Origin: Pontiella agarivorans
GTDB lineage: Bacteria > Verrucomicrobiota > Kiritimatiellia > Kiritimatiellales > Pontiellaceae
Direction of reading: 5' to 3'
DNA: 64,000 nt
Assembly (NCBI RefSeq): GCF_034531395.1
Contig: NZ_JARVCO010000002.1
Coordinates: 806,001 to 870,000 of the forward strand
A program made the translations under genes and the position numbers. Under the pieces are notes generated by a model. It saw nothing but the letters and a program-made list of their open reading frames with translations, ran no database searches and was not told where the DNA came from. Of the stretch, positions 40,355-51,260 are shown one piece after another. The first letter of the stretch is position 1. Each line of letters starts with the position of its first letter.

Positions 40355-40762
40355 CTATTCATCCACAACGGCTTCCGCTTCGAGCGAATAGGATCCGTCT
40401 TCGTGATGCACTTCTTTCCCATTCAGCGGCGGATTGAATACACAGGCCATTTGCATTTCCTCAAAAGCACGAAGCATATGATCATCGTTTTTATCGAGGA
40501 TATAAATGGTCCCCGGCTCAATGGGATATTTTACGCCATCGCTGAGCGTTTCCACTTCCCCTCGTCCCGAGATGCAATACACCGATTCCAGATGCTTTTT
40601 ATAGTGGAGATGAAAATCCGCATCCTTATAAATCGTTGTGATGTGGAAAGAAAACCCCATGCCGTCATCCTTGAGCAGCAGACGGGTGCTTTCCCAGTTT
40701 CCATCCGGCGAAACAATCCGGCGCGCGGAAGCATTGGCGTCCTTCAGGTTACGGACAATCAT
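40355..40762 (-). CDS. ectC: L-ectoine synthase
   Basis: A 135-aa cupin enzyme that cyclises N-gamma-acetyl-diaminobutyrate to ectoine. [51 protein letters not shown] and [18 protein letters not shown] are the conserved EctC blocks, including the metal-binding Glu/Tyr/His set. The ATG overlaps the ectB stop (ATGA), so translation is coupled. Length is normal. Confidence 0.96.
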
Positions 40763-42093
40763 GCCTGAACCTCCGTTTTTTCTTCGTTTTTCTCGACGAC
40801 AACATCGTCGAAATAATCATTTTCTTCCGGAATTTCATCCACACGCCGACACACCAGCCGAACGGCGTCCTCAAGAATATCAATTCCCCGCTTTAGATTT
40901 TCATCGGTAATAATCAAGGGGCAGAGCAGTTTAATCACCTGATCATCGGCGCCGCTCGTTTCAATGATCAGCCCCTGACGAAAGGCGGCATTGGTAATCT
41001 GCCCGGCAATATCACCGTTTACACAGTTAATCCCCTGGAACATACCGCGGCCACGGGTGGTAAAGTTGCCTTCCCCGTGTTCATCCACAATTTTATTCAG
41101 CCGTTCCTCAATATATTTACCTTTGCGCCGCACCTCTTTCTCGAAGCTATCGTCGCTCCAGAATTCGTCGATGGCGGCTTTGGCCGTAACAAACGCCATG
41201 TTGTTTCCGCGGAACGTACCGTTGTGCTCGCCCGGTTTCCAGTTATCGTATTTCGGTTTAATCAGCACTACAGCAAACGGAAGACCGTACCCGCTGAGCG
41301 ATTTGGACAGCGTAACGATATCGGGTTTGATCCCCGCTTCTTCGAAACTGAAGAAGTTTCCGGACCGGCCGTTTCCGGCCTGAATGTCGTCCACAATCAA
41401 CAGCATATCATGTTTTCTGCACACGGCTTCCAGGTTGCGCAGCCACTCCGCCGTACAGGCATTAATGCCGCCTTCCCCCTGAATGCATTCCACAATAGCC
41501 GCCGCCGGTTTATCGATGCCGCTGCTCGAATCGGAAAGTACTTTGTCCATGTATTCAATCGTATCGAGGTCATCCCCCATATAGCCGTCGTACGGCATCC
41601 GGCTGCTGCCCGCAAGCGTCAGCCCGGCCGCTCCGCGATGATGCGAGTTTCCGGTGCAGGCCAGTGATCCCATGCTGACGCCGTGAAATCCGTTGGTGAA
41701 CGAAATAATGTTGCTGCGGCCGGTATAGCTCCGCGCCGCTTTCAACGCGGCCTCCACAGCATTCGTTCCGGTCGGCCCGGTAAACATCACCATGTAATCG
41801 AGCTCCCGCGGCTGCAGAATTTTTTCCTGGAAGGTTTCCAGAAACTCGCGTTTGGCTTCGGTATGCAGGTCCAGGCTGTGCGAGATACCGTCGTTGGCAA
41901 TATATTCCAACAGCTTTTCTTTGAATACCGGATGGTTGTGGCCGTAGTTCAGAGAACCGGCACCCGCCAGAAAATCGAGATATTCATTACCATCGGTGTC
42001 ATAAACATACTCCCCTTTTGCACGTTCGAAAATGCGGGGGAAATTTCGAGCATAGCTCTGAACTTCTGATTCTATTTCGTCGAAGATCTTCAT
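40759..42093 (-). CDS. ectB: Diaminobutyrate--2-oxoglutarate transaminase
   Basis: A 444-aa PLP-dependent class III aminotransferase that makes L-2,4-diaminobutyrate from aspartate semialdehyde. [63 protein letters not shown] and [13 protein letters not shown] (PLP lysine) are all present. It starts immediately after the ectA stop with a GAGG ribosome site inside ectA. No ectoine-type aspartokinase (ask_ect) or hydroxylase (ectD) is in the window. Confidence 0.96.
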
Positions 42094-42609
42094 CTATTTT
42101 TCCTCGCTTTGTTTTTGGGTTATCGGCCCGATACGCCACAGCTCTTCTGATTCGTGGGCCCCTTCAAAATGGGTATTGCGGTCAAACCCGGCCGAAACGT
42201 TTACCGGAACCTCAAGTACAGCGGCCAATTTAGTGAATACCGCTTGCGAGGCTCCGTTCGACGGGGTAATGGTGGTTTCCAGAAACCGGACATTCCGGCA
42301 GGCCGGGCGTTCCAGCAGCGCAATCAGCATCCGGCCGGCCAATCCCTGCCCTCGTGCCGATTCCGCCACCGCAACCTGCCAGACAAACAGGGTGTCGGGA
42401 CGGTCCGGAATCAGATAGCCGCTGATAAAGCCGACCAGATTCCCCTGCTCTTTGGCGCAGATCGCTGTTTCATTAAAGTGGGAACACTGCAGCAGGTTGC
42501 AGTATGCCGAGTTCGGGTCCAGCGGCGGACATGCCGCAACCAGCCGGTGCAATGCATACCCGTCGGTTGAAACCGGTGGGTAAAAGTCAATTTTTGTTGT
42601 TTTCTGCAA
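42094..42609 (-). CDS. ectA: L-2,4-diaminobutyrate N-acetyltransferase
   Basis: A 171-aa GNAT enzyme, second step of ectoine synthesis. VSTDGYALHRLVAACPPLD, NSAYCNLLQCSHF, FVWQVAVAESARGQGLAGRM (acetyl-CoA loop) and TITPSNGASQAVF are diagnostic. The start is TTG 42609 preceded by AGAGGT; no in-frame ATG lies nearby. The C terminus is slightly extended. First gene of ectABC-ssf and divergent from a MarR gene. Confidence 0.94.
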   Translation of the reverse strand: MQKTTKIDFYPPVSTDGYALHRLVAACPPLDPNSAYCNLLQCSHFNETAICAKEQGNLVGFISGYLIPDRPDTLFVWQVAVAESARGQGLAGRMLIALLERPACRNVRFLETTITPSNGASQAVFTKLAAVLEVPVNVSAGFDRNTHFEGAHESEELWRIGPITQKQSEEK

Positions 42610-42647
42610 GATACCTCTCTTTGCAATGGGTCGCGGTTGCTTTAGAA

Positions 42648-42661
42648 TGAAATGCGTTTCA
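42648..42661. promoter_or_regulatory. Candidate MarR/EctR operator
   Basis: A perfect TGAAA-TGCG-TTTCA repeat lies in the ectA-marR divergent region, 38 bp upstream of ectA. MarR proteins bind such sites, and EctR of methylotrophs is a MarR protein controlling ectABC. Confidence 0.4.
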
Positions 42662-42828
42662 ACTGAAATGTATTGATATGGATATTGGTTTTTATGTTTG
42701 GGCTTTTGAGAGCCTCTCTGATCCGGGGAAGTGCAAGCACCGTAGAAAAGGATGTACTTGCATGCAAACTATTTCGTGGTAGAAATATTCGTCCACATAT
42801 CTTATCAGGTATAAAGAAAGAGCTCATC

Positions 42829-43374
42829 ATGACGAAACAAAATAATATTACGCCGGAACAACGGACCGCTTTTTTTGAAACCTACGGCATTCGTGTGCTG
42901 AAATCGCTGCGCCGTATTATCCGGGCGGTTGACATTCACTCCAAAAAACTGAGCCATGAACACAAAATCACGGCACCGCAGATGATCTGTCTGTACAGTC
43001 TTCAGAAAAACGGCCCGATGACCCAATCCGCACTGGCACAGGATGTCGATCTTGGAATGAGCACGGTGAACGGCATTATTGACCGCCTGCATGCCAAAGG
43101 CTGGATCCAGCGCGAGCGCGACAAAGTGGATCGCCGTAAAGTTTTCCTCGAATTAACCGAAAGCGGAACCGCACAGGCTAATGAAGCCCCTGCTCTGCTG
43201 CAGGACAAACTCTCTGAAGCCCTGCAGGCTTTGCCCGAACTGGAGCAGGCCGCCATTGCATTATCGCTCGAACGCATCGTTGAGCTGATGGGCGTAGGCC
43301 ATCTGGAAGCCTCGAGCAACCTGATCCCCACAGAACAGATTCCGGAAAACCCTTCCTCCTCGTCTCCGGCTTAA
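42829..43374 (+). CDS. MarR family regulator (EctR-like)
   Basis: A 181-aa winged-helix regulator. ATG 42829 follows AAAGAG; the open frame back to 42673 has no ribosome site. MTQSALAQDVDLGMSTVNGI is the recognition helix region and RLHAKGWIQRERDKVDRRKV the wing. Position divergent from ectABC and the MarR class match EctR, the known repressor of ectoine genes. It is clearly related to the second MarR at 43632. Beyond the DNA-binding domain it has a 30-residue polar tail rich in Ser and Pro. Confidence 0.9.
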   Translation: MTKQNNITPEQRTAFFETYGIRVLKSLRRIIRAVDIHSKKLSHEHKITAPQMICLYSLQKNGPMTQSALAQDVDLGMSTVNGIIDRLHAKGWIQRERDKVDRRKVFLELTESGTAQANEAPALLQDKLSEALQALPELEQAAIALSLERIVELMGVGHLEASSNLIPTEQIPENPSSSSPA

Positions 43375-43631
43375 GTCCTGAAAAATGAAATATTGCATAT
43401 TATCCGGATAAAAAATTAAAAACATTACCCTTAAGAACGTAAAAATAAGCCTTCCATCCCGCATTGCTCGTTCAGTTTTCGGATAAATTCCGGTATTTTA
43501 TATCGAACGCTAATTCTTCCAGAGCAAAATAGAGTTAAAATACGGAAAAATCATAATAATCCCTTGCGCTCCTAATATTTCGTGTTAGAAACAATTCATC
43601 ACGAATTATTCTTACTGAAGCGAAGGATTGC

Positions 43632-44135
43632 ATGATTTTTTCAGAATCCAGAGGTCAGACCGAGGGGCAATACCTTTACCTTGAACGTGTGCGAAAGGCC
43701 CTGCGGAAGATCAGCCACGCGGAAGATGTCTATTCAAAAAAACTGGATCGGGAATTCGGGGTCACCCTTTCGCAGCTCATTTGTCTGTATACACTGCATC
43801 AGCATGGGCGGCTGACGCTTGCCGAACTGGCGAACGATGTTCACCTCGGGCCCAGTACGGTTCACGGAATTGTGAAACGGCTGCAGCGCAAAGGATGGGT
43901 GCAGCAGTATCCGGACGCACTCGATCAGCGGAAACGCTATCTGCAACTGACCGAAACCGGACGCCATTTTGCAGAAAAATCCATTCACCTGCTTGCCCGG
44001 AACTTTTCGGAGGCGCTTCATGCGCTTTCGCCGTTGGAACAAACCACGCTTATGGCATCACTTAATCTGATGGCCCGACAGGTCGGTTCCGAAATCCCGC
44101 TCCTGATCACACCGGAAAAAGGTCCCGCATCATGA
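43632..44135 (+). CDS. MarR family regulator, osmolyte operon
   Basis: A 167-aa paralogue of the upstream MarR: LTLAELANDVHLGPSTVHGI and RLQRKGWVQQYPDALDQRKR match it segment by segment. It begins after a 257-bp AT-rich gap that includes a TTCGTG...CACGAA repeat at about 43581-43604. Its stop overlaps the mscS start (ATGA), making it the first gene of the marR-mscS-ablB-pfkB-sps-sucrose phosphorylase unit. It is thus a good candidate for the regulator of that operon. Confidence 0.9.
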   Translation: MIFSESRGQTEGQYLYLERVRKALRKISHAEDVYSKKLDREFGVTLSQLICLYTLHQHGRLTLAELANDVHLGPSTVHGIVKRLQRKGWVQQYPDALDQRKRYLQLTETGRHFAEKSIHLLARNFSEALHALSPLEQTTLMASLNLMARQVGSEIPLLITPEKGPAS

Positions 44136-45001
44136 ACCTTAAACTCTATTATCTCATCACCATACTGCTGATCACGCCCGGCCTGGTCTGGTTGAGCATC
44201 AGAAAACTTAAAGTCCTGCAGGCGGAGCGCGAAGAACGGCTGAAAAATCAGGATCATGCCGGACCGGTTCCCTCGCCCAAATCCCAGAAGTCGATTCGAA
44301 GACAGCAGATTAAACGGATGGAAAACCGTTTCAGCATTACGCGCTGGACCATGGTTTTGACGATTTTCATGGCCGGAGCAATTTTTGCAGCGGCGCCGTT
44401 TATCCGGAAGGTTTCGCCTACGTTCCTTCCGGTGATTATGGGGGTCGTTTCCGTCATTATCGGTATTGCGGCCAAACCTTTCATTGAAAATATGATCTGC
44501 GGGCTGGTGCTGTGCCACAGCAAACTGGCCCGAATCGGTGATGTTACCCTGGTGGATGATGCCTACGGGGTGATCGAAGACGTCACGCTGACGCACAGCA
44601 TTATCAAACGCTGGGATTCCCTGCGATACGTGGTGCCCAACAGCTCCATGATGACCAAGGAATTTGTCAATTATTCGCTGCACGACAATGACCGCTGGGT
44701 GATTGTTGAATTCTGGATCGATTATCAATCCGATATTTCAGAGGTGGAGCAAATCGCCATCGAAACACCGAAAAAAAGCCGCTATTTCGCCGATAAAGAA
44801 GAACCCGGCTTCTGGGTCATCGATACGGAAAAGGCGGGCGTGAAATGCATGATCACTGCTTGGGCCACCTCACCTTCCGAAGGTTGGATGCTGGGGCACG
44901 ATATCCGCAAATCTCTTTTGGTTAAACTGAAAGAACACGGCATTACAACCCATGCGCATCGGCTCAGAACGGAACCTCAACCACAGGAGAAAACGGCATG
45001 A
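44132..45001 (+). CDS. Small-conductance mechanosensitive channel (MscS family)
   Basis: A 289-aa membrane protein with an N-terminal helix (LYYLITILLITPGLVWLSI), a Lys/Arg-rich linker, two further helices and the MscS beta domain. The pore-lining helix is PVIMGVVSVIIGIAAKPFIE, followed by RIGDVTLVDDAYGVIEDVTL and VVPNSSMMTKEFVNYS. MscS channels release solutes during osmotic downshock. Overlap with both neighbours (ATGA at each end) couples its translation to the MarR regulator and the acetyltransferase, an informative context for an osmotic valve. Confidence 0.9.
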   Translation: MNLKLYYLITILLITPGLVWLSIRKLKVLQAEREERLKNQDHAGPVPSPKSQKSIRRQQIKRMENRFSITRWTMVLTIFMAGAIFAAAPFIRKVSPTFLPVIMGVVSVIIGIAAKPFIENMICGLVLCHSKLARIGDVTLVDDAYGVIEDVTLTHSIIKRWDSLRYVVPNSSMMTKEFVNYSLHDNDRWVIVEFWIDYQSDISEVEQIAIETPKKSRYFADKEEPGFWVIDTEKAGVKCMITAWATSPSEGWMLGHDIRKSLLVKLKEHGITTHAHRLRTEPQPQEKTA

Positions 45002-45846
45002 CCGACCACATTGAAACCATTCAGGGCGCAACGGTTCAGCATGGCCCGAAAAGCGGCCGTGTATTCATGAAGGAACTGGGTCAGGCCGATCCGGCCCGGC
45101 TGATTCCCAAACTGGCGGAACTGGCTGTACGCAACAACTACCCTAAAGTTTTTGTAAAAGTTCCTGCATCGGAATCCCGCACATTCTATCGAAGCGATTA
45201 CCGAAAAGAAGCGGCCATCCCGGATTTCTATGACGGAGAGGAAGATGCCGTATTCCTATCAAACCTTTCAGGATCCCTCCCCCGCGAAGAGCCCGGCCAG
45301 AACCAGCTCGATGAAATTATGATAACGGCGCGCGAATACCAGAACAGCGGGCTGGCCCATCCTCTGCCCCAAGGCGCAGTGATCCGCAAATGCTGCGGCG
45401 AAGATGTCCCTGCCATGGCCCGCATGTATCGCATGCTGTTGCCGGCCTATCCATTTGCCGTGCACGATATCGACTATCTGCTGCAATCCATGGCTGATGA
45501 AAGTCACTACTACCGTGTTGAAATCCGGAATGAACCTGTTGCCTTGGCTGCCGCAGTGGTTGATACGGAAACCGGCAGCGCTGAAATGACTCATTTTGTC
45601 ACCCATCCCGACTGGCGCAAAAACGGCCTGTCCGCCCGGCTGATCCAGACGATGGAAAATGCGATGAGGCATTTTGATATTCAGACGGTTTACGCCATGG
45701 CGAGGGCCTCATCGGCGGGCATCAACATCGCCTTTGCCCGGCTGGGCTATTCATACGGCGGACGACTGATTAATAAAACACGGATTTCCGGCCATACGGA
45801 AAGCATGAATGTCTGGCACAGAAATCTGCAGTTCACCCCTTCATAA
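44998..45846 (+). CDS. ablB: Beta-lysine N-acetyltransferase (AblB-like)
   Basis: A 282-aa GNAT enzyme. The N-terminal part has NNYPKVFVKVPASESRTFY and EAAIPDFYDGEEDAVFLS; the C-terminal part has HFVTHPDWRKNGLSARLIQT (acetyl-CoA loop), AFARLGYSYGGRLINKTRI and HTESMNVWHRNL. These blocks match AblB, which acetylates beta-lysine to the compatible solute N-epsilon-acetyl-beta-lysine in methanogens and some bacteria. Its usual partner, lysine 2,3-aminomutase (AblA), is not in this window. The start overlaps the mscS stop. Confidence 0.83.
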   Translation: MTDHIETIQGATVQHGPKSGRVFMKELGQADPARLIPKLAELAVRNNYPKVFVKVPASESRTFYRSDYRKEAAIPDFYDGEEDAVFLSNLSGSLPREEPGQNQLDEIMITAREYQNSGLAHPLPQGAVIRKCCGEDVPAMARMYRMLLPAYPFAVHDIDYLLQSMADESHYYRVEIRNEPVALAAAVVDTETGSAEMTHFVTHPDWRKNGLSARLIQTMENAMRHFDIQTVYAMARASSAGINIAFARLGYSYGGRLINKTRISGHTESMNVWHRNLQFTPS

Positions 45847-45866
45847 CCAGCCGACGGAGGCGTCCC

Positions 45867-46799
45867 ATGATTGGAAAAAGAAAATGGAAAATACCCGGAA
45901 CCGGGAAACAGATATTCGGTATGGGGCCGGGCACCGAAGCATCGACTGAACGCGCGCTCGTGATCGGCGAAGCCATGATACAGAATCTGCTGACTGGTCG
46001 CACACCGCAGAGTTCGCCTCTGCAGGTTGCCCGGCAGCTGCAGGAACTGAATATTTCAACACAGTTTGTTACCCGGGTCGGCGACGATGATGACGGGCAC
46101 ATCATTTTAAGTCATATCGATCAAAACGGTCTGGATACCTTCCATATACAGCGTGACCGCACTCATCCGACCGCCAGCATTGAAACCGACAACGCCCGTG
46201 ATGGCGAAGGATATAATCAGCCGGTTGTTCCCCGGGCCGCTTTTGATTTTATTGAATTCGACTCCTTCATTCCTTTTGCACAGTCCGAATCGCTGCTGAT
46301 TTATTTTGATTCGCTGATCCAGCGGAACCATGCATCCCGCAAACGGTTTCATCAGTTCCTCGAACAGATTCCGGAAACCGCCATCTGCACATACGACATG
46401 AATCTGTATCCGGAATGCTGCAAACGTGAACTCATCATTCCGTCGCTCCAACGGGCGGACCTGCTGATTCTTTCCGAAGATGAACTGACTGTAATCGGCG
46501 AACTGATGGGGGCGCCGCCGGGGATTGATTATCTCGCTCAGTCAATTATGGATATTTTTGAAATTACGCAGATCGCGATCACACGCGGGACAGCAGGCAG
46601 CATTCTGTATACCCCGCAGGGTTGCTACAGTCAGCGGCCGACGCGTTTCGGCCGCAGTACCAATATTGATTCCGGTCAGGCCGCAGCCACATTCGCCGCC
46701 ATGATTTCGGACTGTTTTCTTAAACAGGTCCCGCCGAAAAAATCGGTTAAACGCGCCACAAAGCGCGCTGAAAATTACCGCGCGCCGTTATCCCCCTGA
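45867..46799 (+). CDS. PfkB-family sugar kinase homologue, catalytic motif lost
   Basis: A 310-aa protein of the ribokinase/fructokinase fold. SSPLQVARQLQELNISTQFV, RVGDDDDGHIILSHI and ILSEDELTVIGEL are PfkB blocks. In place of the DTxGAGD motif it reads DSGQAAATF (Asp268 onward), so the catalytic-base Asp and the glycine-rich anion hole are gone. It may be a non-catalytic regulator or sugar sensor. Co-transcribed with sucrose-phosphate synthase, where fructokinase would be expected in a sucrose pathway. Gap of 20 bp to ablB; the frame is intact. Confidence 0.8.
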   Translation: MIGKRKWKIPGTGKQIFGMGPGTEASTERALVIGEAMIQNLLTGRTPQSSPLQVARQLQELNISTQFVTRVGDDDDGHIILSHIDQNGLDTFHIQRDRTHPTASIETDNARDGEGYNQPVVPRAAFDFIEFDSFIPFAQSESLLIYFDSLIQRNHASRKRFHQFLEQIPETAICTYDMNLYPECCKRELIIPSLQRADLLILSEDELTVIGELMGAPPGIDYLAQSIMDIFEITQIAITRGTAGSILYTPQGCYSQRPTRFGRSTNIDSGQAAATFAAMISDCFLKQVPPKKSVKRATKRAENYRAPLSP

Positions 46800-46855
46800 A
46801 CACCGCTCATTAAGCCGTATTCATAGAACGATCATATCATAGAGAAAGCAGTCAG

Positions 46856-49042
46856 ATGACGAACGAAAAACTATACATACAGATGTTCAGCCTGCACGGA
46901 CTGATCCGCAGCTCCAATCTGGAAATGGGCCGCGACGCCGACACCGGCGGACAGATTAAATATGTCCTCGAAGAAGGCCTTGAACTTTCCCGGCAGCCCG
47001 AAGTGGAACGGGTCGATCTGTTCACCCGGCAGATTCGGGATAAAACGGTGTCGGAGGATTACAGCATTTCCATTGAACAGGTCACGGATACGTTCCGCAT
47101 TGTGCGCATCCCCTGCGGCGGCGGAAAATACCACCGGAAAGAACTGCTCTGGCGCTACCTCGATGAGTATATCGACAAAACCGTTCAGTTTATCAAACGC
47201 GAAGGCCGCATGCCCGACGTCGTACACGGTCATTATGCGGATGCCGGTTATGTTGCCATGTGGCTCAGCCGTCTCTTCGGCGTACCGTTCATTTTCACCG
47301 GGCATTCGCTGGGCCGTTCCAAAAAACAGAAACTGCTCAGCGACGGAATGACCGAAGAAAAAATCAACCGAAAATATATGATTTCCCAGCGGATCGATGC
47401 GGAGGAAGAGGTGTTGAAATCCGCTGAACTGATCATCACCAGTACCCGTCAGGAAGTGGACGAGCAATACGGACAGTACACCTATCAGCACGGCCCCGAA
47501 TACCGCGTCATACCGCCGGGGATCGATCTGGAAAAATTTTATCCGTATTACCACGATCAATTCGAAGAAAATGAACCGGATATCGAAGCCCGGTATGCAC
47601 GCGCCTCGCTTCTCCGGGAACTCGAACGCTTTTTCAAAGCAAAGGATAAACCGCTTGTTCTGGCGCTCTGCCGTCCCGACAAACGCAAAAATATATCCGG
47701 TCTGATTGAAGCCTTCGGTGCGGACAGGGAGCTGCAGGCCATGGCCAACCTCGCCATCTATGCCGGCATTCGTAAAGACATCACCATTATGGAGGACAAC
47801 GAACAGGGTGTGCTGACCGATATGCTGCTATTGATGGACAAGTATGATTTGTATGGAAAAATGGCGATTCCGAAGAAGCATGATTTTGACCTGGAAGTTC
47901 CGGAACTCTACCGGATCGCAGCCGCCAGCAACGGTGTATTTGTGAACGCCGCCCTCACGGAACCCTTCGGTCTCACGTTGCTTGAAGGCGCCGCCACTGG
48001 TCTCCCGCTGGTGGCTACCGACGACGGCGGACCGCGCGATATTCTGGCAAACTGTAAAAACGGGCTGCTCGTCGATCCGACCGATTCCGACGCCATTGCA
48101 AAATCGATTAAATCCATCATTTCCGATCCCGACGTGTGGGAGAATTATTCCAAAAACGGTATTCTGAATATCCGCAACCACTACACCTGGGAAAGTCACG
48201 CCCGGCAGTACATCAAAGAAATCTCGGGCGTCATCGAAAAAAACAAACCTGCGGAAACCGCCGCACCGGCCACGCCTTCAGCCATCGGGCGGCGGTTTGC
48301 CGAATTGAATCATTTTCTGATTACCGATATCGATAATACCCTGATCGGCGATGACAACAGCCGGCTGCCGGAGCTGATTGATTTTCTTCGGAACTGTCAC
48401 GGCCGTATCGGCTTCGGCATCGCCACCGGGCGTACCATTGAATCGGCCACTGAAATTCTGGCGGAACACGGCATTCCGCAGCCGGATATCATGATCACAT
48501 CGGTGGGAGCGGAAATTTATTACGGAGCCGAACAGCATGCCGACCAGGGCTGGAAAGCACATATTTCCAACCATTGGAACCGGGAAAAAATACGGCAGTT
48601 GCTCCGTCCGCTGGATTTTCTGGAATATCAGGAAGAGGATACCCAGCGGCCGCACAAGGTCAGTTATAATATGGATCCCGGCAAGGACCGCCTGACCCGG
48701 ATTCATGATCTGCTTCAGAAAAACCGCTGCCGCTATACCCTGATCTATTCACACGAACAGTTTCTCGACATCCTCCCGCATCGGGCATCGAAAGGAAAAT
48801 CCATCCGCTACCTCAGCTATAAATGGCACATCCCGCTTGCGAATATTCTGGTGGCCGGCGATTCCGGTAATGATGCCGAAATGCTGCGCGGCGATACCGC
48901 CGGTGTGGTGGTCGGAAACTACAGCGCCGAACTCGAAGCCTTTAAGGGAAAACGTAAAATTTATTTTGCAGATGCCGACTGCGCCGGCGGAATTCTCGAG
49001 GGCATTGCGCACTACAACCTCCAAAACAGTATTGAGGCATAA
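46856..49042 (+). CDS. Sucrose-phosphate synthase fused to sucrose-phosphate phosphatase
   Basis: A 728-aa two-domain enzyme. Residues about 1-470 are a GT4 sucrose-phosphate synthase: GRDADTGGQIKYVLEE, VHGHYADAGYVA, FTGHSLGRSKK, CRPDKRKNISGLIEAF, and TEPFGLTLLEGAATGLP with the retaining-GT Glu pair. Residues about 485-728 are a HAD phosphatase: ITDIDNTLIGDD (Asp491, Asp493) and VAGDSGNDAEML. It would make sucrose from a nucleotide-glucose and fructose-6-phosphate in one polypeptide. In marine bacteria sucrose is a compatible solute, which agrees with mscS, ablB and ectoine genes nearby. Sucrose phosphorylase follows after 2 bp. Confidence 0.94.
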   Translation: MTNEKLYIQMFSLHGLIRSSNLEMGRDADTGGQIKYVLEEGLELSRQPEVERVDLFTRQIRDKTVSEDYSISIEQVTDTFRIVRIPCGGGKYHRKELLWRYLDEYIDKTVQFIKREGRMPDVVHGHYADAGYVAMWLSRLFGVPFIFTGHSLGRSKKQKLLSDGMTEEKINRKYMISQRIDAEEEVLKSAELIITSTRQEVDEQYGQYTYQHGPEYRVIPPGIDLEKFYPYYHDQFEENEPDIEARYARASLLRELERFFKAKDKPLVLALCRPDKRKNISGLIEAFGADRELQAMANLAIYAGIRKDITIMEDNEQGVLTDMLLLMDKYDLYGKMAIPKKHDFDLEVPELYRIAAASNGVFVNAALTEPFGLTLLEGAATGLPLVATDDGGPRDILANCKNGLLVDPTDSDAIAKSIKSIISDPDVWENYSKNGILNIRNHYTWESHARQYIKEISGVIEKNKPAETAAPATPSAIGRRFAELNHFLITDIDNTLIGDDNSRLPELIDFLRNCHGRIGFGIATGRTIESATEILAEHGIPQPDIMITSVGAEIYYGAEQHADQGWKAHISNHWNREKIRQLLRPLDFLEYQEEDTQRPHKVSYNMDPGKDRLTRIHDLLQKNRCRYTLIYSHEQFLDILPHRASKGKSIRYLSYKWHIPLANILVAGDSGNDAEMLRGDTAGVVVGNYSAELEAFKGKRKIYFADADCAGGILEGIAHYNLQNSIEA
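48565..48579. repeat. TTCCA-N5-TGGAA palindrome, copy 11
   Basis: TTCCAACCATTGGAA, identical to copy 2, inside the phosphatase domain of the sucrose-phosphate synthase gene (ISNHWN). Confidence 0.65.
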
Positions 49043-49044
49043 AC

Positions 49045-50490
49045 ATGAATCTGCAGAATAAAGTACAACTCATCACCTATCCCGACAGCCTGGGCGGAAA
49101 TCTGCTGACCCTGCATTACTGTCTGCGTAAATATTTCGCCGACGCCATCGGCGGCGTGCACATTCTGCCGTTCTATCCCTCGTCCGCTGATCGCGGTTTT
49201 GCCCCGATCAACTATGCGGAGGTGGATGAACAGTTTGGAACCTGGGAGGATATTGAAAAAATCGGAGCCGATTTTGACCTGATGATCGATTTTATGGTCA
49301 ACCACATTTCCCGCCAGTCCGCTGCGTTCCAGGATTATCTTGAACTGGGTCCGGAATCAGAATTTGCGGATCTGTTTTTAAGCTTCCAGAAATTCGGACC
49401 CGAAGGGATCAGCGATGAAGATCTGGCCAAAGTATATACCCGGAAACCACGGCCGCCCTACCTGGAAATTCAGCGGCCGGACGGCAGCAATGAGCGAATC
49501 TGGTGCACCTTTGATTATGAACAGATCGATCTGGACTGGAGTACACAGTTAACCCGGACCCTGATGCGTAATGAACTGATCCGGCTGTCACGAACCAACG
49601 CAAAAATGATTCGGCTTGATGCTTTTGCCTACACGACCGTGGAGATCGGCACCGACTGTTTTTTCCGGGAGCCGGCGGTGTGGGAACTGCTGAACTGGCT
49701 CAAAGACTGCGTTGAGCCGTTCGGCACCGATGTGCTTCCCGAAGTCCATGAGCATTACAATTATCAGCTTAAACTTCAGGAAAAGGGCTATTGGTGTTAC
49801 GATTTTGCGCTTCCCATGCTGATGCTTCATGCACTTTACCATCACACCGGAAAGCGCCTGATCAAGTGGCTGCAGACCTGCCCGACCAAACAGTTTACTA
49901 CGCTCGATACCCACGACGGTATCGGAATTGTGGATGTGCAGGATCTGCTCAGTCCGGAGGAAATCGATTCTACGGTTGAGGGTCTTTATGAAAAAGGGTC
50001 CAACGCCAAAAAAGTCTACTCGGGCCCTGAATACCAGAATCTCGATCTTTATCAGATCAACTGCACCTATTATTCCGCGCTTAACCACGACGACGATGCC
50101 TACATCGCCGCCCGGGCCATCCAGTTTTTCGCCCCCGGAATTCCGCAGGTTTATTATGTCGGCCTGCTGGCCGGCGAAAATGATACCGATCTGGTCGAAC
50201 AGACCCGCAACGGCCGCGACATCAACCGGCATAATTACAGCATTGAAGAAATCAGTCAGCAGGTCAGTCGTCCGGTTGTTCAGCGCCTGCTCAAACTGAT
50301 GGAATTCCGCAACACGCACCCCGCGTTTGACGGCCCGCTGTTTATTCCCGAAACACCGGACGATCGTCTGGAGATGGTCCGAAAAAACGGTATTCACAGC
50401 GCAACGCTTTCGGTCGACCTCAGAACGCATGCGGCAGAACTTACTCACAGCGGAGCCGGGCCGGCCGGCGAAGAAAGGATGACGATCTGA
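49045..50490 (+). CDS. Sucrose phosphorylase (GH13_18)
   Basis: A 481-aa enzyme that splits sucrose with phosphate to glucose-1-phosphate and fructose. Catalytic residues are in place: Asp192 in MIRLDAFAY, Glu233 in LPEVHEHY and Asp291 in LDTHDGIG; these positions nearly equal those of characterised sucrose phosphorylases. It starts 2 bp after the synthase stop. A synthase and a phosphorylase in one operon allow sucrose to be made on salt stress and reclaimed later without loss of the glycosidic bond energy. Sucrose-6'-phosphate as an alternative substrate cannot be excluded. Confidence 0.9.
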   Translation: MNLQNKVQLITYPDSLGGNLLTLHYCLRKYFADAIGGVHILPFYPSSADRGFAPINYAEVDEQFGTWEDIEKIGADFDLMIDFMVNHISRQSAAFQDYLELGPESEFADLFLSFQKFGPEGISDEDLAKVYTRKPRPPYLEIQRPDGSNERIWCTFDYEQIDLDWSTQLTRTLMRNELIRLSRTNAKMIRLDAFAYTTVEIGTDCFFREPAVWELLNWLKDCVEPFGTDVLPEVHEHYNYQLKLQEKGYWCYDFALPMLMLHALYHHTGKRLIKWLQTCPTKQFTTLDTHDGIGIVDVQDLLSPEEIDSTVEGLYEKGSNAKKVYSGPEYQNLDLYQINCTYYSALNHDDDAYIAARAIQFFAPGIPQVYYVGLLAGENDTDLVEQTRNGRDINRHNYSIEEISQQVSRPVVQRLLKLMEFRNTHPAFDGPLFIPETPDDRLEMVRKNGIHSATLSVDLRTHAAELTHSGAGPAGEERMTI

Positions 50491-50552
50491 CACCGCCGAA
50501 GCTCCCGTGAGCGATATCGTTTTTATGAAGAACACAAACATGGAGGTACAAC

Positions 50553-51260
50553 ATGAAAATGCAACGCATCATAACAACCGTAATTCCGTTGCTGTTCATC
50601 ATCGTCCGTTCGGCGGAAGCCGTTCGCAAAAACCCGCCCGATGAAAAAGAGGTGGAGGAGATCCTCATTGAACTCGGGGATGACCATTGGGTAAAAGATA
50701 TGGATGTCGACGAATTCGCCTCCAGTCGGATTGAAGATCCCGTCACGGAGGAGGATACCTATCTGCATATCTACACCAGTTATGTCGATGCATCCGAAAA
50801 ATATCGAATTATTCTGTTTGATAACGAACAGCGCTATCTCGGGTATTATCGTTCCAGATTTGAACCGGTTGATTATGAAGAAAATGCGGTTTTGGTTGAT
50901 GCGGAAGATGGGTCGACATACTTTCGTCTGCCATTATCGACCGAAGGTTTTCCGAGCCGCGTTCGTACCGGACTGTCCATTACAACCTTTATTGAAAATG
51001 AACATATTGAACCTGATCCGGGCCCCGAAACCCATGACGAACAGCAGCCCGTTCAGGAATCCGATCCGGATGAACCGCAATATCGTGACTGGACGGTGAA
51101 TATCAGAGATCGGGAAATTACATTCAATGCGGTATTCGTGCGCCGCGACGGCGATAAAATCGTTCTGAAAGAGTCGAAACAGGGAAAAGTTAACGGAATT
51201 CCCGGGCAACTGTTCAGTGAAAAAGATCAGGAATATCTCAAAGACATTCTTGAGCTTTGA
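50553..51260 (+). CDS. Exported acidic protein of unknown function
   Basis: A 235-aa protein with a signal-like N terminus (MQRIITTVIPLLFIIVRSAEA) and a good GGAGGT ribosome site. The mature part is very acidic (DEKEVEEILIELGDDHW, EPDPGPETHDEQQPVQE), with beta-rich segments (YRIILFDNEQRYLGYYRS) and a C-terminal domain (REITFNAVFVRRDGDKIVLK). I do not recognise a family. The last segment, KEDQ-like KVNGIPGQLFSEKDQEYL, resembles SHD1-type domains of PVC proteins (RxWxDxTGxF...), but I cannot confirm it. It lies 62 bp after the sucrose operon. Confidence 0.75.
   Translation: MKMQRIITTVIPLLFIIVRSAEAVRKNPPDEKEVEEILIELGDDHWVKDMDVDEFASSRIEDPVTEEDTYLHIYTSYVDASEKYRIILFDNEQRYLGYYRSRFEPVDYEENAVLVDAEDGSTYFRLPLSTEGFPSRVRTGLSITTFIENEHIEPDPGPETHDEQQPVQESDPDEPQYRDWTVNIRDREITFNAVFVRRDGDKIVLKESKQGKVNGIPGQLFSEKDQEYLKDILEL

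Follow-up and report, generated by a model that had tools for sequence, protein, structure and literature searches.

A degenerate PfkB protein in the sucrose operon of Pontiella agarivorans is probably a lineage-specific pseudokinase

The PfkB-family protein encoded just upstream of the sucrose-phosphate synthase gene (sps) of Pontiella agarivorans has very probably lost kinase activity. Catalytic inactivity is strongly supported by the sequence because the catalytic Asp, the anion-hole glycines, the N-terminal GG, D39 and R181 are all absent. The reading that we favour, with a probability of roughly 0.55, is that this protein (hereafter the window kinase, the window being the whole 64,000-nucleotide stretch of genome analysed) is a pseudokinase confined to its lineage, without catalysis yet still translated and folded, and that its ancestor was the fructokinase-like kinase encoded in a pfkB-sps(-gtfA) operon.

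Results

The signature motifs of the kinase are lost

The frame is open on the + strand over its 310 codons, as the first-pass annotation had read it. Its product matches PF00294 at 40.2 bits, above the cut-off of 25.8, which places it in the PfkB/ribokinase family by profile. The label 'PfkB family carbohydrate kinase' is thus earned by the Pfam score; the residues of the known mechanism are absent. Coordinates of the gene, its motifs and its neighbours are collected in Table 1.

Table 1 Features of the window kinase gene and its surroundings
Feature	Position	Strand	Evidence
MarR-family regulator, overlapping the channel gene	43632..44135	+	PF01047 E 8.7e-14
MscS-type mechanosensitive channel	44132..45001	+	PF00924 E 4.8e-11
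AblB-type putative beta-lysine N-acetyltransferase	44998..45846	+	TIGR03827 249 bits, above cut-off
GGAGG ribosome-binding site, 6 nt upstream of ATG	45856..45860	+	direct sequence reading
Degenerate PfkB/fructokinase-like protein (probable pseudokinase), 310 aa	45867..46799	+	PF00294 E 3.4e-10; 2qhp; Foldseek
N-terminal extension, 29 codons, without counterpart in four Kiritimatiellota orthologues	45867..45953	+	alignment, model, GC
N-terminal GG motif lost: residues 46-53 TPQSSPLQ vs RPGGAPFN of orthologues	46002..46025	+	
DxNxR motif, Arg lost (DMNLY)	46395..46409	+	orthologue alignment
KxNxxE motif, Lys and Asn lost (ILSEDE)	46467..46484	+	orthologue alignment
Catalytic/anion-hole motif lost: DSGQAAATF vs DTVGAGDSF	46668..46694	+	orthologue alignment
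Early stop and 56-nt gap before sps start	46797..46855	+	coordinates; C-terminal alignment
Sucrose-phosphate synthase fused to sucrose-phosphate phosphatase domain (sps)	46856..49042	+	TIGR02472 619 bits, TIGR02471 288 bits, above cut-off
Sucrose phosphorylase (gtfA)	49045..50490	+	TIGR03852 656 bits, above cut-off

Residues 268–276 read DTVGAGDSF, DTVGAGDAF or DTVGAGDSY in four orthologues. The first-pass annotation had noted that the DTxGAGD motif is replaced by DSGQAAATF in the window kinase, and this holds: residues 271–274 are QAAA, three of the four GAGD residues are gone and the catalytic Asp is among them, so that the anion hole and catalytic Asp of an active PfkB kinase are missing. 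At the N-terminal region RPGGAPFNFA has become TPQSSPLQVA, and Q48 and S49 are found where an active kinase carries GG. Further substitutions are D39 to Q, R181 to Y, K201 to I and N203 to S, the last shared with one intact relative (L063), which likewise has Ser. The loss is therefore wider than the single motif on which the earlier claim of lost catalysis, itself sustained from the sequence, was built. A frameshift or sequencing error at the motif region was ruled out, as D268, A272 and the next FAA stay in register through the alignment.

Several cleft residues are retained (E35, D74, D177, N179, E206, T239, G241, G244 and D268, with TRGxxG present), as might be expected of an enzyme with altered chemistry or substrate that uses other residues of the old cleft. 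We consider such an enzyme very unlikely, since the protein lacks all at once the catalytic Asp and the two glycines of the anion hole, the Lys of KxN, the GG, D39 and R181, and joint loss of GG and Asp occurs in none of a further 75 rows of the alignment, which include one genome twice and two rows that cannot be read at the Asp.

At 64 positions conserved across 17 intact operon-type kinases, the window kinase has lost 31, five of these by conservative replacement (V to I, for example); when the intact operon-type kinases are left out one by one, each retains 45 of 45–50 conserved positions. Losses are concentrated in the two signature motifs, where 16/23 positions are gone (7/23 kept) vs 15/41 elsewhere (26/41 kept; Fisher p 0.018, with motif boundaries chosen by the analyst). 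When DxNxR, KxNxxE and TxGxxG are added to the active-site class the comparison is not significant (13/32 kept vs 20/32, p 0.13).

The predicted structure is compatible with the PfkB fold

An AlphaFold model of the window kinase, built with 30 homologues in the alignment, has a pLDDT of 85.9 and a pTM of 0.86. Because homologues guided it, we take the model as compatibility with the PfkB fold and no more. Foldseek returned PfkB structures at probability 1.00 with fructokinases on top, in keeping with a ribokinase-like fold for this homologue-guided model. Sequence (E 3.8e-16) and fold (TM 0.76/0.82) both point to the Bacteroides thetaiotaomicron fructokinase 2qhp as the nearest solved structure, and it retains the GAGD that the window kinase does not. 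A kinase fold is thus predicted with its catalytic residues lost, which is one mark of a pseudokinase. The claim in the first-pass annotation that the rest of the fold is intact survives as regards the confidently predicted fold; it fails for GG, D39, R181, K201, N203 and about 15 C-terminal residues, all of which are gone. The NCBIfam fructokinase equivalog NF006957 scores the window kinase at 49 bits vs a cut-off of 450, a profile that does not discriminate here, as four intact orthologues also fall below the cut-off at 64–92 bits.

Both ends of the protein differ from those of relatives. The GC content by codon position of the N-terminal extension is not coding-like (over 29 codons only), and residues 1–30 are of low confidence in the model; one of the four orthologues compared could start 15 residues earlier, at TTG. 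The true start may lie further downstream, despite the GGAGG at 45856–45860. The C-terminus is about 15 residues shorter vs the orthologue from genome G033, and a search for a C-terminal remnant in the other frames of 46770–46858 found none (170/300 shuffles score equally high).

The gene keeps its place in a sucrose operon

The order of genes is MarR, MscS, AblB, then pfkB, the sps/phosphatase fusion and gtfA. The kinase gene, open and with host-like codon usage, stands in a sucrose operon with sps and gtfA as neighbours, which supports the placement first proposed. The window sps is 76–79% identical to its four Kiritimatiellota orthologues. Ectoine genes lie nearby on the opposite strand, and in 40355–45846 the ectoine genes, two MarR regulators, the MscS channel and the AblB acetyltransferase adjoin the sucrose operon, which suggests an osmolyte gene cluster. 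No Rfam RNA element was found in 42000–51000 at the gathering threshold. A promoter scan returned 6 sites vs 8.0 in shuffles, which is no excess, and gave no promoter-like match on the + strand over 42649–47834, hence none between pfkB and sps, such scans being weak evidence.

The earlier suggestion that the protein is conserved and regulates the sucrose operon by sensing a ligand is favoured by this location, between osmolyte genes and sps, and non-catalytic carbohydrate kinase-like regulators are known, for example yeast Gal3p in the part of PMC3409070 available. A sensor of this kind is nonetheless highly improbable here. Orthologues are intact and the form is not conserved (see below), Pfam finds no DNA-binding domain in the window kinase, and conserved residues are damaged on the sugar side and the nucleotide side alike, which makes sensing through ATP or sugar binding less likely.

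Related kinases are intact

In the same order, four genomes, including one from the same genus, encode kinases 31–35% identical to the window kinase with both signature motifs intact. A contig scan with an alignment of four orthologues returned at least 90 relatives, from which 80 loci were retained, and 21 related kinases, the closest among the matches listed, were compared; they come from Kiritimatiellota, Desulfobacterota-type genomes and one Desantisbacteria genome. Among these listed matches all 21 keep the GG, N53, R181, K201 and the catalytic Asp. Two more distant kinases near sucrose genes (G015, G050) also read GAGD. The sps gene lies directly downstream of the kinase in 18 of the 21 loci; of the other three, one contig ends about 100 nt past the kinase (L050), one shows no sps in its remaining 1 kb (L062), and at L047 (G033) there is no sps within 6 kb of the kinase and sps is found on another contig of that genome. 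At L046:9087-11492 and L082:9100-11514 a second sps-like glycosyltransferase, 28–30% identical to sps, follows sps in the place held by gtfA elsewhere.

In the tree the window kinase groups with the operon kinases of its own phylum (supports 79 and 87). Replacement by an unrelated paralogue is unlikely, given the same operon place and this moderately supported grouping.

The first-pass annotation had held the pseudokinase form to be conserved, had asked for an orthologue alignment to see whether the loss is shared, and had named an intact motif in close orthologues as evidence against its reading. The alignment was made and the loss is not shared: with 21/21 related kinases intact among the matches listed, conservation of the degenerate form does not stand. 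The motif is thus intact in orthologues, but with identities of 35% or less these do not count as close; in the genomes searched no orthologue above 35% identity to the window kinase was found. No close orthologue of the degenerate form was present in 58 relatives or 387 genomes of the phylum (the sets overlap and include the host's own genome), nor in a contig scan with the window protein alone, a search that may leave out very near records. Among the genomes searched the degenerate form occurs in that of P. agarivorans only, and as far as searched the loss is specific to this lineage.

A separate set of PfkB loci also lacks the catalytic Asp. In a Bacteroidota clade (L069-L110) it is absent in 29/29 readable loci (30 examined, among the matches listed), replaced by Met (24), Val (4) or Ile (1), mostly as DN[IV]GSGMAF. 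The hosts are Draconibacterium, Maribellus, Mariniphaga and other Prolixibacteraceae/Bacteroidales, with examples at L077:5989-6894 and L073:5917-6906. The L077 protein matches PfkB at 105 bits, and the gene after it belongs to the 2-oxoadipate dioxygenase/decarboxylase family; the L073 neighbour is similar by eye. From its sequences this clade appears to be a bacterial PfkB pseudokinase that has been conserved, and it could prove of greater interest than the window gene. Two actinobacterial PfkB proteins, from Arcanobacterium haemolyticum and an Ancrocorticia MAG (L095:6001-7008 and L102), read DT[IV]GAGAAF, in which Ala replaces the catalytic Asp.

The gene has changed fast and does not look decayed

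The window kinase branch measures 1.58 substitutions per site vs 0.58–0.78 for the four Kiritimatiellota orthologues from the same node, 2.0–2.7 times longer (the tip branches of the four are 0.19–0.56). In same-taxa trees the window branches of sps (0.15) and gtfA (0.16) lie within the relatives' range. Unconstrained dN/dS on the window branch was uninformative, as synonymous change saturates and no usable omega results; the neutral distance was instead fixed from sps and gtfA at 1.7–2.25. Omega for the kinase branch is then 0.87 at a distance of 1.7 and 0.65 at 2.25; for sps and gtfA it is 0.10–0.13. An omega of 1 for the kinase is not rejected at 1.7 (1.2 log units) and is rejected at 2.25 (10.8). 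Averaged over the protein, amino-acid change has therefore been nearly free, through relaxed constraint, adaptive change or both.

Such values, together with the altered signature motifs, C-terminus and region of the orthologues' start codon, are what a pseudogene in early decay would show, its function recently lost and its disabling mutations yet to come. We regard early decay as distinctly unlikely, for the excess divergence amounts to about 0.9 neutral changes per codon. Drift was simulated from the four living orthologues, matched for identity, at 0.89 neutral changes per codon in 400 runs without small insertions and deletions; an average of 7.9 nonsense hits accrued and 0/400 runs were free of them. 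The window frame has no nonsense codon before its end, but stops about 15 residues early. Its codon preference, 0.196, also stands against decay, being the 8th highest of 54 window frames (a mechanical gene list, doubtful frames included), with an intergenic mean of -0.10. Pieces of 930 nt from the host sps and gtfA, drifted equally, fall to about 0, and 0/200 of each reach 0.18. The preference is weaker in the first third of the gene (0.084), and the argument assumes that it has no origin in context-dependent mutation, an assumption supported by the negative intergenic score.

Hydrophobic residues are kept at 66/77 columns, a level equalled by 19/400 drift runs and thus modestly above drift. 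Replacements average -0.375 on the BLOSUM62 scale, milder than drift (2/400 runs as mild) and inside the range of four intact controls (-0.56 to -0.15). With no stops, its codon preference, the GGAGG and a confident homologue-guided model, the gene does not look like a decaying one. The lack of stops and the host-like codon usage favour maintenance of the gene by selection, against which stands the omega of 0.65–0.87.

The main rival is a translated placeholder: an inert protein through whose frame ribosomes pass and so spare sps and gtfA from polarity, with stops purged while amino acids drift. The near-neutral amino-acid change with no stop would fit, as would the retained gene order and the lack of a promoter-like match between pfkB and sps in the weak scan. 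It is weakened because the kinase stop and the sps start now have 56 nt between them, whereas in the 18 relatives with an adjacent sps the kinase stop overlaps or lies at most 20 nt from the earliest possible sps start; the tight spacing has already been lost through C-terminal truncation. Core hydrophobicity and the mildness of replacements above drift also run against it. On balance we judge the placeholder unlikely, though less so than early decay.

Another kinase may phosphorylate fructose in the host

The host genome (4,436,865 bases, 12 contigs) encodes an intact fructokinase-like PfkB on contig 7 (G000:C7:424952), with GGAP and DSVGAGD present and fructokinase as its best NCBIfam match (90 bits, below the cut-off of 450), and one ROK kinase. 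Growth of P. agarivorans NLcol2 on fructose and sucrose is reported in the available part of PMC10880615. Host fructose is probably phosphorylated by another kinase, for example the contig 7 PfkB.

Discussion

In relatives the operon kinase presumably phosphorylates the fructose freed by sucrose phosphorylase and returns fructose 6-phosphate to the synthase, as the operon's gene content implies. In the host this step would have been taken over by another kinase, of which the contig 7 protein is a candidate. After release from catalysis the two signature motifs would have been lost fastest, with more of the core, the frame, the start signal and the codon usage kept, as the calculations above indicate. 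We infer a translated and folded product that acts through binding, most likely as a protein-protein partner, for instance of the synthase-phosphatase or in a dimer with an active fructokinase. A regulatory role is possible. As a tentative extension, doubtful in itself, the protein may be a new recruit that serves the sucrose-phosphate synthase/phosphatase, or the cell's active fructokinase, as a regulatory or scaffolding subunit; if true, an operon enzyme would have been converted to a non-catalytic partner in one lineage while the active state persists in sister lineages.

Because 21/21 related kinases are intact among the matches listed, the step from enzyme to pseudoenzyme appears confined to one lineage. 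The host is in culture and the operon is small, and gene exchange with relatives could put this step to the test. For annotation, the case is a caution that a Pfam score can pass a protein lacking the residues of the known mechanism. Among the matches listed, judged by title or abstract opening, we found no paper on a bacterial PfkB pseudokinase.

The closest counterparts are the PfkB genes beside sps in Kiritimatiellota and Desulfobacterota-type genomes, which belong to the same family (23–35% identical) and hold the same operon position in 18/21 loci. They keep the GG, N53, R181, K201 and catalytic Asp, whereas the window kinase has lost them all. A further parallel is found in methanotrophs, whose fruK, sps, spp and amylosucrase genes we take to form one operon. 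FruK there is likewise the fructokinase of a cycle that makes and degrades sucrose; in contrast to the window kinase it is a characterised ATP-fructokinase, and amylosucrase serves there where sucrose phosphorylase is found here (PMC8062543, in the portion available).

In the accessible text of the papers cited, the PfkB proteins without kinase activity are plant FLN1 and FLN2, which lack fructokinase activity and act via partners (PMC5864856, PMC3409070); the window kinase would be a bacterial case. Its likeness to FLN1, FLN2 and yeast Gal3p is at best that all are non-catalytic relatives of sugar kinases. As described in the available sections of PMC5864856, FLN1 and FLN2 keep the catalytic Asp (GSGD, A/QSGD), carry a long N-terminus and insertions, and have a plastid role. 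In this plant type it is the other positions of the motif that have changed. The window kinase does not fit it, for it has lost the Asp and, beyond its 29-residue N-terminus, has no large insertion vs the G033 orthologue.
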